Shown in pieces: positions 2,318 through 35,526 of a stretch of DNA of 36,279 nucleotides (within the stretch, counting starts at the first letter, position 1; every line of letters starts with the position of its first letter). This DNA comes from an uncultured delta proteobacterium (GTDB lineage Bacteria > Desulfobacterota > Syntrophia > Syntrophales > Smithellaceae), in NCBI GenBank assembly GCA_903907985.1, contig CAIVQG010000062.1, positions 1 to 36,279 of the forward strand, in the 5' to 3' direction. The notes beneath the pieces are model-generated. The model was given only the letters and a program-made list of their open reading frames with translations, did no database searches and had not been told where the DNA came from. Made by a program: the position numbers and the translations under genes.

Positions 2318-3565
2318 ATGTCTTTTTTAGAAAAAGTTGATCCGGAAGTAAAACACGCCATTGACCTCGAAACATTAAGGCAAGCAGGCAAACTGGAGCT
2401 TATTGCTTCCGAGAATTTTGTCAGCGAAGCTGTATTGGAAGCTCAGGGCAGCATCATGACCAATAAATATGCCGAAGGTTATCCCGGAAAACGCTATTAC
2501 GGCGGCTGTGAATTTGTCGATATCGTGGAGAATCTGGCCATTGAGCGTTGTAAACAGCTTTTCGGCGCCGATAGTGTTAATGTCCAGCCGCATTCCGGAA
2601 CGCAGGCGAATATGGCTGTTTATTTTGCTGCTCTCCAGCCGGGCGACACTGTTTTGGGCATGAATTTATCACACGGCGGCCATCTATCACACGGCAGCCC
2701 GGCCAACTTTTCCGGCAAATATTACAAGATTATTCCCTACGGCGTGGACAAAGATACGGAAACTATTGATTTTATTGAAATGGAAAAATTAGCCAAAGAA
2801 CATAAACCGAAAATGATTATTGTCGGCGCCAGTGCCTATCCCCGAACTCTCGATTTTACGCGCTTCCGCAAGATAGCCGATGAAGTTGGCGCCGTCGTCA
2901 TGGCCGATATTGCCCATATCGCCGGACTGGTGGCGGTAGGACTTCACCAGACTCCCGTACCGGTTTGTGAATATGTTACTTCTACAACGCATAAAACTTT
3001 GCGCGGCCCGCGCGGCGGATTAATTATGTGTAAAGAAGCTTATGCCAAAACTTTGAACAGCCGTGTTTTTCCCGGCTCACAGGGCGGGCCTCTTATGCAC
3101 GTTATTGCGGCTAAAGCTGTTGCCTTTAAAGAGGCGCTGTTACCGGAATTTAAGCAGTACCAGCAGCAAATTCTGAAAAATGCCCAGGCTTTGGCCGATG
3201 AACTGAAAAACCAGGGTTTCCGTCTTGTTTCTGGTGGAACGGACAATCATTTGATGCTGGTTGATTTAACCGCCAAGGGTGTTAACGGCAAAGAAGCACA
3301 GGAAGCGCTTGACCGTGCCGCCATCACAGTGAACAAAAACGGTATTCCCTTCGATACTCAGGGACCGCAGGTTACCAGTGGTATTCGCATTGGCACACCC
3401 GCAGTGACCACCCGCGGCATGAAAGAAAATGAAATGCGACTGATTGCTTCTTATATTGCCGATGTTATTGCGAATATAAACGACGAAAATAAAATTCAGG
3501 CTGTGGCTGCGCAAGTCAAAACACTCTGTGCCCAGTTTCCGCTATATCAGCAGAGAATAAAATAA
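2318..3565 (+). CDS. glyA: Serine hydroxymethyltransferase
   Basis: This 415-residue PLP enzyme interconverts serine plus tetrahydrofolate with glycine plus methylene-tetrahydrofolate. It feeds one-carbon units to thymidylate and purine synthesis. The PLP-binding lysine is Lys226 in [14 protein letters not shown]. Other family marks are the N-terminal [22 protein letters not shown] near residue 51, and the C-terminal [16 protein letters not shown] strong AGGAGG at 2301-2306 lies 11 bases before the ATG. The dCMP deaminase and nrdR genes follow, so this stretch gathers folate and nucleotide functions. Confidence 0.97.
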
Positions 3566-15936: not shown

Positions 15937-17499
15937 ATGGTTAAAGAGAAAAAAAATAAATCTCCTCGTTCCCTGCTGAAATTAGAAAATCTGCGGCTCA
16001 AAGCTGCCAGTGGCTGGGATGTTTTAGCTGATGCTGTCAAAAATTACAGCCTCAACGGAGACACCAATCAAGCCGCAGCAATTGCCCTTTATGCCATCCT
16101 TTCCGCCATCCCCTTATTCATCCTGACCATCGTTGCTGCCGGATTTGTTTTCAATTCTTATCCGCATATTCAAGCGGACATTACCGAAGCCATAAGCCGT
16201 GGCTTCTTTTCGGAAAAACTTTTAGCGCAACTCGGCCAAATTGAGAAGAAAAGGAATTTATTGGGCTGGGCCGGTGTGCTGGGCTTGATCTGGCTTTCCT
16301 CTGCAATTTTTGACTCCATGGCGACGGCACTCAATATTATTTTCCGTTCGCAGAAAAAACGTAACTTTTTCCGGGCGAAGCTGCTCGCCATTTCCATGAT
16401 TCCGCTGGCCTGGATTGTGGGTATCGCCTCTGTAGCCATCAGCTATATCACTGCTTTGCTCGTCTCACAGCCGGCACTTTTTATGGAGAGTCTGGGATTT
16501 TCTCTTTCAGCGGTATCCGCCGTCCTGCTTCGCTACGTCGTGCCTTATTTAATTACAACTCTTTTTTTTATTATCGTTTACCGGGTAATTCCAACTGCCA
16601 GGATTCGTCTTTCCGTTGCCGTCGCCGGCAGCGCAATTGCCGCCCTGCTCCTGGAAATTGCCAAACAGTTCTTTACCTGGTATGTTGCCAACTATACCCG
16701 CTATGATGTTATTTTCGGCTCTCTGGAAGCAGTTGTCATCCTGGTCATCGGCGTATTTTACATTGCTTTAATTTTCCTGTTTTGTGCGGAAATGATGTCG
16801 TCGTATCAGCGCCGTGATATTCTTTTGCTCGAAGGAGCAATACTCAACCCTCATAAAAGCATCCTGAAAGTTGATGAACGTCTCTTTAAAAAATTTGGGC
16901 GCGCCTATGAAAAAGACAGCATTGTTTTTAATGAAGGTGATAGCGGACATGAAATGTTTTATGTCTTGTCTGGTCGTATCTTTTTGGAAAAAGTTGATTG
17001 CCAGATAAAAAAAGTATTAGCTGAAATGGGGCCTGGGAAATATTTTGGCGAAATGGCCGCTCTTATTGATATATCTCGGTCTGCGACGGCGCGCGCGATA
17101 GAGCACAGCCATCTGGCAGTTATTGACGGTAATACTTTCCGTGATATGCTGAGGGAAAGCCAGGATGTAGCCCTGCACATGCTCAAAGAATTTTCCCGCC
17201 GGTTAAAAAACTCCAATAGCGCTCTCGAAGAGTTGACTAATCTGTGGGTGCGCATGGCTATTGTCATTTATTTCATTGATAATCCCGGAGCAAAAATTAC
17301 AGAGCACCTGCCACAACTGGCAACGATTACTAAAAAGGAACCGGCAAACATCAGGGAAATATTAAATGAACTGGCCCGCGAAGGAATAATGATTATCAAT
17401 AATGATCTGTTGACGGAAGTAGTTCGGGAAAAAATGTGGAGCTTGCTGGAAAACGGGGAGTTACGTAAGTGCTTTATCGCCGAAAAAGATAAAGTCTGA
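15937..17499 (+). CDS. YihY/BrkB-family membrane protein fused to a Crp/Fnr-like regulator
   Basis: The first about 300 of 520 residues form a YihY/BrkB-type integral membrane domain with about six hydrophobic helices, including AAAIALYAILSAIPLFIL near residue 46. From about residue 315 a cyclic-nucleotide-binding fold follows. Its phosphate-binding cassette is intact in type: FGE at 370-372 and Arg381-Ser382 in SRSATARA. The tail then reads like the C-helix of Crp/Fnr proteins (LKEFSRRLKNSNSALEELT) and a winged-helix-like stretch (LATITKKEPANIREILNEL). So a membrane protein appears joined to a whole Crp-type regulator facing the cytoplasm. It might be a membrane-tethered regulator or a ligand-gated transporter. 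The ligand is unknown. It follows cydB by 47 bases. Confidence 0.85.
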   Translation: MVKEKKNKSPRSLLKLENLRLKAASGWDVLADAVKNYSLNGDTNQAAAIALYAILSAIPLFILTIVAAGFVFNSYPHIQADITEAISRGFFSEKLLAQLGQIEKKRNLLGWAGVLGLIWLSSAIFDSMATALNIIFRSQKKRNFFRAKLLAISMIPLAWIVGIASVAISYITALLVSQPALFMESLGFSLSAVSAVLLRYVVPYLITTLFFIIVYRVIPTARIRLSVAVAGSAIAALLLEIAKQFFTWYVANYTRYDVIFGSLEAVVILVIGVFYIALIFLFCAEMMSSYQRRDILLLEGAILNPHKSILKVDERLFKKFGRAYEKDSIVFNEGDSGHEMFYVLSGRIFLEKVDCQIKKVLAEMGPGKYFGEMAALIDISRSATARAIEHSHLAVIDGNTFRDMLRESQDVALHMLKEFSRRLKNSNSALEELTNLWVRMAIVIYFIDNPGAKITEHLPQLATITKKEPANIREILNELAREGIMIINNDLLTEVVREKMWSLLENGELRKCFIAEKDKV

Positions 17500-31030: not shown

Positions 31031-31579
31031 TCAAAAAACAAACACAGCAGCGGCAATAACAGTGGTGTAATTATTGTTTTTACATATTGTTGATTGAGTT
31101 ACATTGAGCGTACGGACTATTTTCCCGCTGATTTTAAAAATTTCTTTTTTCTCATCCCAGCTTTCATCAACATTGAAATCAATACCTAAAGTGGAGGCCA
31201 GCATAGCAGCCGCAAGATCCTCGGCATATTCACCGGCCTGCTTTTCCGTTTGGCCGTAAGCGTGATGTTCACTGATATAACCATATGACGATTTATCTGC
31301 AGGAATGGCGCAACCGACAGACGCCGCCAGTAGCCGCTTCGGTTCGTTACTGCAGCAACGACTCATGACACAATAAGTAATGGCGCCGGGAACCAGCTCT
31401 GTGAGTCCCAGTGGCTTGGAAATCATTTTACAGTGCGGCGGAAAAATACTGGAAACCTGGACCAAATTACATTTCTCAATGCCGGCATCTCGCAAAGCCC
31501 GTTCAAAGGAATGCAACTCATCCTTGTGTGTTCCCACACCTTTGGTAAAAAAAATCTTTTTGGGTACAAAATCAGACAC
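31031..31579 (-). CDS. Pyruvoyl-dependent arginine decarboxylase
   Basis: This protein of about 182 residues matches the bacterial/archaeal pyruvoyl arginine decarboxylase family, which makes agmatine for polyamines. The proenzyme is cut at the Ser-Ser in [10 protein letters not shown] (about residues 43-44), and the second serine becomes the pyruvoyl group. Family marks are [37 protein letters not shown] and the ending [11 protein letters not shown]. The start was set at GTG 31579, because AAGGAG lies seven bases before it and the family begins at about [11 protein letters not shown] longer frame back to 31690 overlaps the upstream gene and adds 37 atypical residues. Confidence 0.93.
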
Positions 31580-31640
31580 TTTCCATCTCCTTTTTTCGTC
31601 CTTTAAAGGCGAATTTATATATTTGCGGAACCCCTTGCTA

Positions 31641-32108
31641 TTATCCGCCGTCGGTTTGCACAAACGCTGTGTTATCGTATAAGTACTCAACTTTTTCTTT
31701 ATGCTTCATTTCTTGATTGGCCATCTTGAGTAACATTTGTTTTATTTCGCCATCCGGATGAATAGCCGCCATTCCCTTGTAAAAATTATAGGAGTTCAAC
31801 TCTCTTGCCGCCGCCAGCAAATAAACATCTTTGCTATCCATATCGTATTTGACCTGGGGAGGCTGCAAAAACTCAGCAATTTTGTTATTAGCTGTTTCAT
31901 CGGTCTCTGTGGCGTTACCAATAAAATTTTCCTGCCGGTAATGCAGCAGATATTCTTTATGTTGCTTTTCTTCACTTGCCAGATAAAGCAGAGTATCTTT
32001 AACCATTTTATCGGAAACCATCTCGGAAAGCTTCAGATAAAACTGGTTTGCTTCTTCTTCATTGGCAATTGCTTTTTCAATGATGGAATCAAATTTCATA
32101 TTCTTCAT
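31641..32108 (-). CDS. Ferritin-like / rubrerythrin-family diiron protein
   Basis: This protein of about 155 residues is a four-helix-bundle ferritin-like protein. The carboxylate-histidine pattern of a diiron site is present: [30 protein letters not shown] and [15 protein letters not shown]. The C-terminal rubredoxin domain of classical rubrerythrins is missing. Such proteins commonly scavenge peroxide in anaerobes, though the role here is inferred. The start was set at ATG 32108, with GGTGA eight bases upstream; a frame from 32159 adds 17 unlikely residues. It lies 56 bases after the selenoprotein gene. Confidence 0.87.
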
Positions 32109-32164
32109 AATTATTTCACCCATCTGCAAATAAGGAAACGGCCCCCGGCCGGTATTCATATACC

Positions 32165-32371
32165 TCAGGAGCCACCATAGCCTACTGTTATTTTATCATC
32201 TTCAATGATCACCGGCACCTGACGTTTCCCGCCGGATAATCGCAACATTTCTGCCAATTTATCGGCATCAGCCTTTACATCGACATAAACAGCCGAATTA
32301 CCAAAAGCCACCCTGGCCTTATCTGTATATGGTCAGCCACTTTTCCCGTAAATTATTATTTTACCGGACAT
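32165..32371 (-). CDS. UXX-star-type small selenoprotein with in-frame UGA (selenocysteine 13)
   Basis: Read through a single UGA, this is a 68-residue glutaredoxin-like protein: MSGKIIIYGKSG-U-PYTDKAR, then RQVPVIIEDDKITVGYGGS. The UGA (32333-32335) stands where a glutaredoxin has its first active-site Cys, giving U-P-Y-T, as in the UXX-star (seleno)protein families. Downstream the frame keeps thioredoxin-fold marks: a VYVDVKAD strand, an EMLRLSGG helix, a cis-Pro-like QVPV and a terminal GGS. A hairpin fitting a bacterial SECIS follows the UGA. The function is unknown, probably redox. It lies between a cyclic-nucleotide-fold protein and the ferritin-like gene on the same strand. The ribosome binding site is weak. 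A pseudogene or sequencing error is the alternative. Confidence 0.85.
32304..32335 (-). promoter_or_regulatory. UGA codon and candidate bacterial SECIS element
   Basis: On the minus strand the UGA is followed by 12 bases, then the stem AAGGCC (32320-32315), loop AGGGU (32314-32310) and stem GGCUUU (32309-32304). The six pairs include one G-U. The loop guanines lie 20-22 bases after the UGA. Bacterial SECIS elements have a short apical loop with an early G about 16-37 bases after the UGA, so this fits SelB recruitment. Confidence 0.7.
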
Positions 32372-32395: not shown

Positions 32396-32881
32396 TTAAT
32401 ATTCGTTTAAAACGGAAAGACCTCTTTCCCCCACTAAAATTATTCGTGTATGGGTCAACCTTGTCGAAATTACTTTGGCCACAAGCTGCATAACTTTGAA
32501 ACCGAGATTATTGTCTTCTTCCATTAATTTTCTCAAACCAAAGGAATCGAAGGCAATTACTTTTGTATCATCAATGCAAAGAGCACCAAGAGTATAAACA
32601 TAAGGATCAACTACAGCTGACCAACCCATGGACTCACCCTTGGTGATCATATCCACAGTAACTTGCATTGGCGGCTTATGTGGTCCCATATAATTATCTA
32701 TAAACAAAACAATTTTGCCCTCTTGAATCAGAAAAAGGGATCTCGCGGGATCACCATTTTGATACATCTGAGTTCCGGCCAAAAAACTTTCTTCGCTCGC
32801 CAAGGCTGCTAATTTATTTAACTGGTCATCATTAAATTCCTTACAAAAGACAAATTCCTTTAATAGGCTAATGGGGACCAT
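32396..32881 (-). CDS. Cyclic-nucleotide-binding-fold protein without DNA-binding domain
   Basis: This 161-residue protein has a cNMP-binding beta-roll: GTQMYQNGDPARSLFLIQEG and then GESMGWSAVVDPYVYTLGA (82-100). The phosphate-binding cassette is altered. The usual FGE-x-L and R-S/T-A pattern is replaced by MGW and Y-T, so cyclic nucleotide binding is doubtful. The helix-turn-helix of Crp/Fnr proteins is absent, so it is not a direct transcription factor. It has AAGGAG eight bases before the ATG and heads the minus-strand set with the selenoprotein, ferritin-like protein and arginine decarboxylase. Its role may be protein-protein signalling, which is a guess. Confidence 0.85.
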   Translation of the reverse strand: MVPISLLKEFVFCKEFNDDQLNKLAALASEESFLAGTQMYQNGDPARSLFLIQEGKIVLFIDNYMGPHKPPMQVTVDMITKGESMGWSAVVDPYVYTLGALCIDDTKVIAFDSFGLRKLMEEDNNLGFKVMQLVAKVISTRLTHTRIILVGERGLSVLNEY

Positions 32882-35450: not shown

Positions 35451-35526
35451 GCCGATGTAGCTCAGCCGGCAGAGCAACTGATTCGTAATCAGTAGGTCGC
35501 CAGTTCGATTCTGGCCATCGGCTCCA
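35451..35526 (+). tRNA. tRNA-Thr (anticodon CGU), CCA encoded
   Basis: The 76-base sequence folds as a tRNA. The acceptor arms are GCCGATG and CATCGGC. The anticodon arm is ACTGA-TTCGTAA-TCAGT with anticodon CGT (reads ACG, Thr). The T arm is GCCAG-TTCGATT-CTGGC. Discriminator T is followed by an encoded CCA. It stands alone after truA. AT-rich foreign-looking DNA begins after its 3' end. Confidence 0.97.

Follow-up and report, generated by a model that had tools for sequence, protein, structure and literature searches.

A minus-strand locus in the 36,279-nucleotide contig of an uncultured delta proteobacterium (this whole stretch of DNA is referred to here as the window) raises the question of which of three in-frame UGA codons encode selenocysteine (Sec) and which one ends the protein. 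The initial annotation had proposed a glutaredoxin-like selenoprotein of 68 residues at positions 32,165-32,371, with a single UGA in the active-site motif U-P-Y-T and an end at GGS. Translation of the minus strand from the ATG at 32,371 to 32,168 gives the frame MSGKIIIYGKSGUPYTDKARVAFGNSAVYVDVKADADKLAEMLRLSGGKRQVPVIIEDDKITVGYGGS, in which this UGA is codon 13, so that this part of the proposal stands. The last codon of the proposed range, by contrast, is a second UGA (codon 69), and past it come Gly, Ile and a third UGA, only nine bases from the second. Read in this way the C-terminus becomes GYGGS-U-G-I-stop and the protein has 71 residues. Comparison with relatives supports a reading with readthrough at UGA codons 13 and 69, a separate SECIS hairpin after each of them, and termination at the third UGA. 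Because the second predicted Sec codon was taken for a stop, one of the two Sec residues, the C-terminal U-X-X-stop and the second SECIS were all missed at first. Ordinary ORF calling splits the gene, as had been pointed out, and the locus illustrates how ordinary, even careful, reading goes wrong where a frame contains UGA three times, twice for Sec and once as stop. The features of the gene, all on the minus strand, are the following.

32,159-32,371, minus: coding sequence of the UXX-star family 1 selenoprotein, 71 residues (MSGK...GYGGSUGI), matched by model NF041114
32,333-32,335, minus: first UGA, read as Sec13 in the U-P-Y-T motif
32,304-32,320, minus: candidate SECIS 1, AAGGCC-AGGGU-GGCUUU, loop 18 nt past the first UGA, inner pairs kept in most Sec rows
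32,165-32,167, minus: second UGA, read as Sec69
32,156-32,158, minus: third UGA, read as the stop codon
32,139-32,151, minus: candidate SECIS 2, CGGCC-GGG-GGCCG, beyond the coding region, loop 18 nt past the second UGA, with covariation

Family assignment and selenocysteine machinery

The glutaredoxin-like nature of the protein and its assignment to the UXX-star type, both part of the initial annotation, were borne out by profile searches. The Pfam Glutaredoxin domain matched with about 32 bits (31.8; cut-off 22.9). The NCBIfam model NF041114 ('UXX-star selenoprotein family 1', cut-off 72) scored the 68-residue reading at 98.8 bits and reached model position 67 of 70, while the 71-residue reading scored 107 bits over positions 1-70 of 70, the rise being contributed by the UGI tail. 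A whole-genome search with the same model returned the match at 32,159-32,359 with '2 TGA' inside. Sequence-related to the same domain are UXX-star families 2 and 3 (NF041211 and NF047338) and the HUGP/GUXX-star fusion (NF045501). The window protein belongs to none of them, scoring 50.8 and 51.2 bits against cut-offs of 100 and 97 for the two families and 50.8 bits against 325 for the fusion.

In excerpts, a 2026 review (PMC13188914) enters the family under the name 'Distant Grx-like protein 1', with the motif UxxT and 2 Sec, and a 2022 review (PMC9312934) gives it with UxxT. The window gene has the UxxT motif and two candidate Sec codons, UGA at 13 and 69. The finding itself is therefore not new, since an NCBIfam equivalog model exists and the excerpted 2026 review already gives two Sec; the window protein adds one member to a catalogued family. 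Excerpts of PMC13188914 cite Haft and Tolstoy 2025 for UXX-star family 2 and the 2008 GOS paper for family 1; the words 'distant Grx' do not occur in the excerpted main text of the latter. A literature search on C-terminal Sec in glutaredoxin-like proteins returned nothing on UXX-star family 1 in its listings. The name 'UXX-star' most plausibly denotes the C-terminal U-X-X-stop, as read from the model length and the tails.

All four sel genes sought in the source genome were found. SelA, SelB and SelD scored 607, 367.7 and 370.2 bits, all over the cut-off, and the tRNA-Sec gene (selC) scored 77.4 bits (cut-off 47) with the anticodon UCA; further, weaker matches over the same cut-off reached 51.8 and 47.4 bits. 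Since selA occurs in 58 of 59 genomes, its presence does not discriminate. The selD gene (contig C66 of the same genome, around position 1531 of locus L008) has an in-frame TGA in the motif V-H-G-A-G-U-A-C-K with a hairpin after it, so that SelD, which produces the selenium donor, is probably a selenoprotein here too. At gathering scores, Rfam models matched only tRNA in the window (a gene at 35,451-35,523, 71.8 bits), and near the selenoprotein gene there were two snoRNA matches far below gathering scores. A 5S rRNA match was not found in the 83 contigs of the source genome, so the assembly may lack rRNA operons.

Conservation of the two UGA codons and their hairpins

A single scan across species genomes yielded 37 loci, which together with the window form 38 rows for comparison; two of the alignments (A3 and A7) take in 32 of these. 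For codon 13, data exist in 37 rows (the window and 36 loci, all except L048), of which 25 have TGA and 12 encode Cys. The tail position is more constant, with TGA followed by X-[VIL] in 34 of 38 rows; L026 has TGG, and L046, L049 and L050 lack a comparable tail. Both TGA codons are present in 23 rows. The stop after the tail is TAA, TAG or TGA and mostly follows immediately, being displaced by one to five codons in L027, L031, L033 and L034, and beyond it the sequences diverge. L014, the relative closest to the window, matches it in DNA without any difference over codons 15-32, with silent changes on both sides. Two rows deserve separate mention. In L026 (positions 5-225) the Trp codon TGG stands at the tail position while TGA is kept at codon 13. 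In L023 (positions 3001-3240, from a MAG titled Syntrophus aciditrophicus) TAA lies inside the tail, the second hairpin is absent, the frame runs on and the match to the next gene starts truncated right after; this looks like a deletion, a pseudogene or an assembly error.

A search of 59 genomes, the window's own among them, with NF041114 gave matches over the cut-off in 24. Among the 26 matches, 19 contain two in-frame TGA codons, three contain one and four contain none. We read 17 of them individually, namely the ten best-scoring, which are not a random sample, plus the complete set of seven that contain fewer than two TGA codons. Each of the ten best, fetched as loci, has TGA at both places. 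The seven others all have the tail TGA just past the match (as U-S-V, U-A-V, U-P-V or U-A-I), with Cys at codon 13 in four and TGA in three; L020 and L025 have DNA in common with two of them. Altogether, of 35 rows with a tail, 34 carry TGA at that codon and one TGG, and all 17 further matches (two sharing DNA with earlier rows) carry TGA as well; Cys occurs there in none of these. The gene found no match in the plasmids and phages searched.

The first hairpin had been described as six pairs with the loop AGGGU, 12 bases past the UGA, and it was found as such at 32,304-32,320. The bacterial SECIS model, as given in excerpts of PMC13188914, has a loop of 3-9 nt, a stem of 4-16 bp, a G in the first two loop positions, a UGA-to-loop distance of 16-37 nt and a minimum free energy of at most -7.5 kcal/mol. 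With a 5-nt loop, six pairs and 18 nt, SECIS 1 agrees with this geometry, while its free energy is -6.1 kcal/mol alone, weaker than the published limit, and -8.9 kcal/mol over 46 nt. These 46 nt from the first UGA onward fold no better than shuffles (z 0.07), and 11 of the 1210 TGA triplets in the window, its own included, are followed by an equally high-scoring hairpin. Therefore, SECIS 1 by itself proves little, and the comparison across homologs carries the case. In 20 of 25 Sec rows all five inner pairs can form, compared with 2 of 12 Cys rows (L016 and L017; Fisher one-sided p 0.0004, relatedness ignored). In the longer form of the protein (L020, L025, L027, L028, L030, L031, L033 and L034), they are complete in 4/4 Sec rows and 0/4 Cys rows. 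The Sec rows without the full stem are L042 with two of five pairs, L050 with one, and L037, L039 and L045 with four. Using alignments A5 (without L050) and A6 (without L046 and L049), 95.0% of the cells are paired in 24 Sec rows, with no shuffle as high, versus 72.0% in 10 Cys rows, where 189 of 500 shuffles are as high. For the number of pairs with two-sided changes in the 24 Sec rows, 91 of 500 shuffles are as high. Among the ten best genome matches, the five pairs are complete in six and four pairs form in the others.

The second hairpin, with the 3-nt loop GGG, five pairs and 18 nt, also agrees with the geometry of the published model, and its free energy alone is -8.0 kcal/mol, next to the published -7.5. 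Folding of the single sequence after the second UGA is not significantly better than that of shuffles. A hairpin score of at least 12 was reached in 33 of the 34 tail rows, compared with 28 of 257 control TGA ends (10.9%). For the covariation analysis 27 of the 34 tail rows were aligned. L016 was left out as almost a duplicate of L015 and L017, L023 because it lacks the hairpin, L035, L040 and L048 because their stems are much longer, and L041 and L043 because their hairpin starts later. In this alignment, 87.7% of the cells are paired and two-sided changes occur in all six pairs. These compensatory changes number 53 against 20.2 in shuffles, and the covariation reaches 0.787, compared with 0.288 after shuffling and no more than 0.299 after sliding. 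Of the five measures, two are unremarkable, as 176 of 500 shuffles are as high for pairs with two-sided changes and 46 of 500 for further pair types. Unaided, RNAalifold predicted a helix that has five of the six pairs in common with SECIS 2. The second hairpin scores at least 12 in nine of the ten best genome matches, the best hairpin of L056 being unusually placed, and for the seven matches with one or no internal TGA, six tails were scored, four at 12 or above and two at 11. A good second hairpin is absent in L023 and L053. Judged by this comparison with relatives, the second UGA is very probably a selenocysteine codon too, and the window gene encodes, with very high probability, a two-Sec UXX-star protein. 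The sel genes are present in the genome, homologs align across the first UGA and the part downstream of it is conserved, the three points at which the initial annotation could have failed.

Gene neighbourhood and alternative readings

The genes around the selenoprotein gene follow the order cyclic-nucleotide-binding protein, selenoprotein, rubrerythrin-like protein, pyruvoyl-dependent arginine decarboxylase. The coordinates of these three neighbours are as follows.

32,396-32,881, minus: upstream neighbour, 161-aa protein with a cyclic-nucleotide-binding domain (Pfam PF00027), relatives in at least 15 of 47 loci
31,641-32,159, minus: downstream neighbour, rubrerythrin/ferritin-like protein (Pfam PF02915), relatives in at least 14 of 47 loci
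31,031-31,690, minus: next gene, pyruvoyl-dependent arginine decarboxylase (Pfam PF01862), relatives in at least 13 of 47 loci

All three occur together in at least 13 of the 47 loci (tblastn, L014-L060); the counts are lower bounds because several loci are short. The listed start of the rubrerythrin-like gene overlaps SECIS 2; translation of this gene probably begins at an internal ATG, at 32,108. A distinct U-P-H-C glutaredoxin-like selenoprotein candidate lies behind a ferritin gene in L050 (positions 1703-2880), and this ferritin and the rubrerythrin-like neighbour in the window hint at a link of such selenoproteins to ferritin-like proteins. Elsewhere in the window (15,937-17,496), a BrkB-like membrane domain is fused to a cyclic-nucleotide-binding domain.

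The initial reading, in which the second UGA is a real stop and the protein has 68 residues and one Sec, has in its favour the plain decoding of UGA as stop and a number of Sec residues that varies within the family, Cys standing at codon 13 in about a third of the rows (12 of 37). We consider it very improbable and reject it on account of the tail TGA-X-[VIL] kept in nearly all rows, the strongly covarying hairpin right behind the second UGA, and the NF041114 match that extends three positions further with a rising score. Decay of the gene or a sequencing error at the UGA codons would fit a draft genome of 83 contigs and the visible damage in the relative L023, but the same two TGA codons recur in many other genomes with matching hairpins, which leaves this explanation a negligible chance.

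A third alternative accepts both Sec residues and differs in their use: Sec13 and Sec69 would clamp a soft ion such as mercury or arsenic for metal or metalloid handling instead of forming a redox pair. Longer U/CPFC-type relatives point in this direction, as they lie near SBF-family permeases (4/4 scanned members of an eight-locus cluster), an ArsP permease and an ArsR-type regulator; a thioredoxin domain is found near such relatives as well. The SBF family includes arsenite exporters. Excerpts of PMC13188914 likewise allow for the Sec residues of UXX-star proteins serving as metal ligands or contacting unknown substrates. However, none of the five scanned window neighbours (the cyclic-nucleotide-binding protein, the rubrerythrin-like protein, the arginine decarboxylase, CheW and NlpC/P60) is an arsenic or mercury gene, and fold and motif are of the glutaredoxin type. 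A metal-binding role is possible, though we regard it as unlikely. The reading that we prefer, with moderate confidence as a whole, is a two-Sec member of UXX-star family 1 whose tail would take part in the redox mechanism proposed below.

Predicted structure and a proposed role of the C-terminal tail

An AlphaFold2 model of the 71 residues with Cys in place of Sec showed a glutaredoxin fold with a pLDDT of 92.1 (84 for the last block, the tail), and the best structural matches (Z 9.5 to 9.2) were the thioredoxin-like BC3987, glutaredoxins and NrdH-redoxins. The modelled fold stops where the last glutaredoxin helix would begin. DSSP assigned strand marks at residues 51-52 and 69-70; modelling the protein again after removal of residues 69-71 abolished the mark at 51-52 and left the rest unchanged. 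Since the two marks vanish together, the tail probably pairs with residues 51-52, beside Val52-Pro53, which is invariant in the 32 rows aligned. This suggests that Sec69-Gly70 docks before Pro53, at what is the glutathione site of glutaredoxins.

In ordinary glutaredoxins, glutathione lies along the strand before the conserved Val-Pro, and in glutaredoxin-glutathione complexes its backbone pairs with the residue preceding the cis-proline. Combining this with the predicted pairing of the tail, we propose that Sec69-Gly70 replaces glutathione and resolves Sec13. The protein would be a glutaredoxin fold cut short after the last strand and thus without the last helix, in which Sec13 would attack the substrate while Sec69-Gly70 lies along the strand before Val52-Pro53, at the place of glutathione. 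Sec69 would then serve as a built-in resolving selenol. The resulting bond, a diselenide between Sec13 and Sec69 or, in the relatives with Cys13, a Cys-Sec bond, would be reopened by a cellular reductant; the partner may be the rubrerythrin-like protein of the adjacent gene, though relatives of that protein turned up in only 14 of the 47 loci, a lower bound. As a whole, this tail-resolving mechanism, derived from the models, is a tentative proposal that falls slightly on the doubtful side. The wider notion that UXX-star proteins are glutaredoxins whose own C-terminus replaces glutathione, with Sec69-Gly70 imitating Cys-Gly and closing the diselenide with Sec13, is more speculative still and, in our view, rather unlikely. 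If true, it would be the tail selenium that is constant and functional, with either Sec or Cys at position 13. For this selenoprotein family, to which the excerpted literature assigns no tested function, the proposal offers a concrete testable mechanism in which a selenol of the tail occupies the glutathione pocket.

Among known systems, UXX-star family 1 ('distant Grx-like protein 1') is the closest, sharing the full-length match, UxxT, two Sec and the glutaredoxin-like character with the window protein; nothing essential differs, although the last residue is Ile in the window protein and Val or Leu at this place in the other tail rows. Functional glutathione-using glutaredoxins have a CxxC or CxxS site and a last helix that helps to bind glutathione. 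The window protein matches the Pfam domain itself, but its site is UPYT and it ends before the last helix. With Glutaredoxin 3 and NrdH-redoxin it has the fold and the first active-site position in common, while it lacks the last helix, carries Thr instead of Cys at the fourth active-site position, possesses a C-terminal Sec tail and scores far below the cut-offs of both models. The proposed role of this tail can be likened to that in mammalian thioredoxin reductase, whose tail is Gly-Cys-Sec-Gly and in which a mobile, near-terminal Sec acts as a redox partner. That is a different enzyme with a different fold, and in the window protein the partner would be another Sec.
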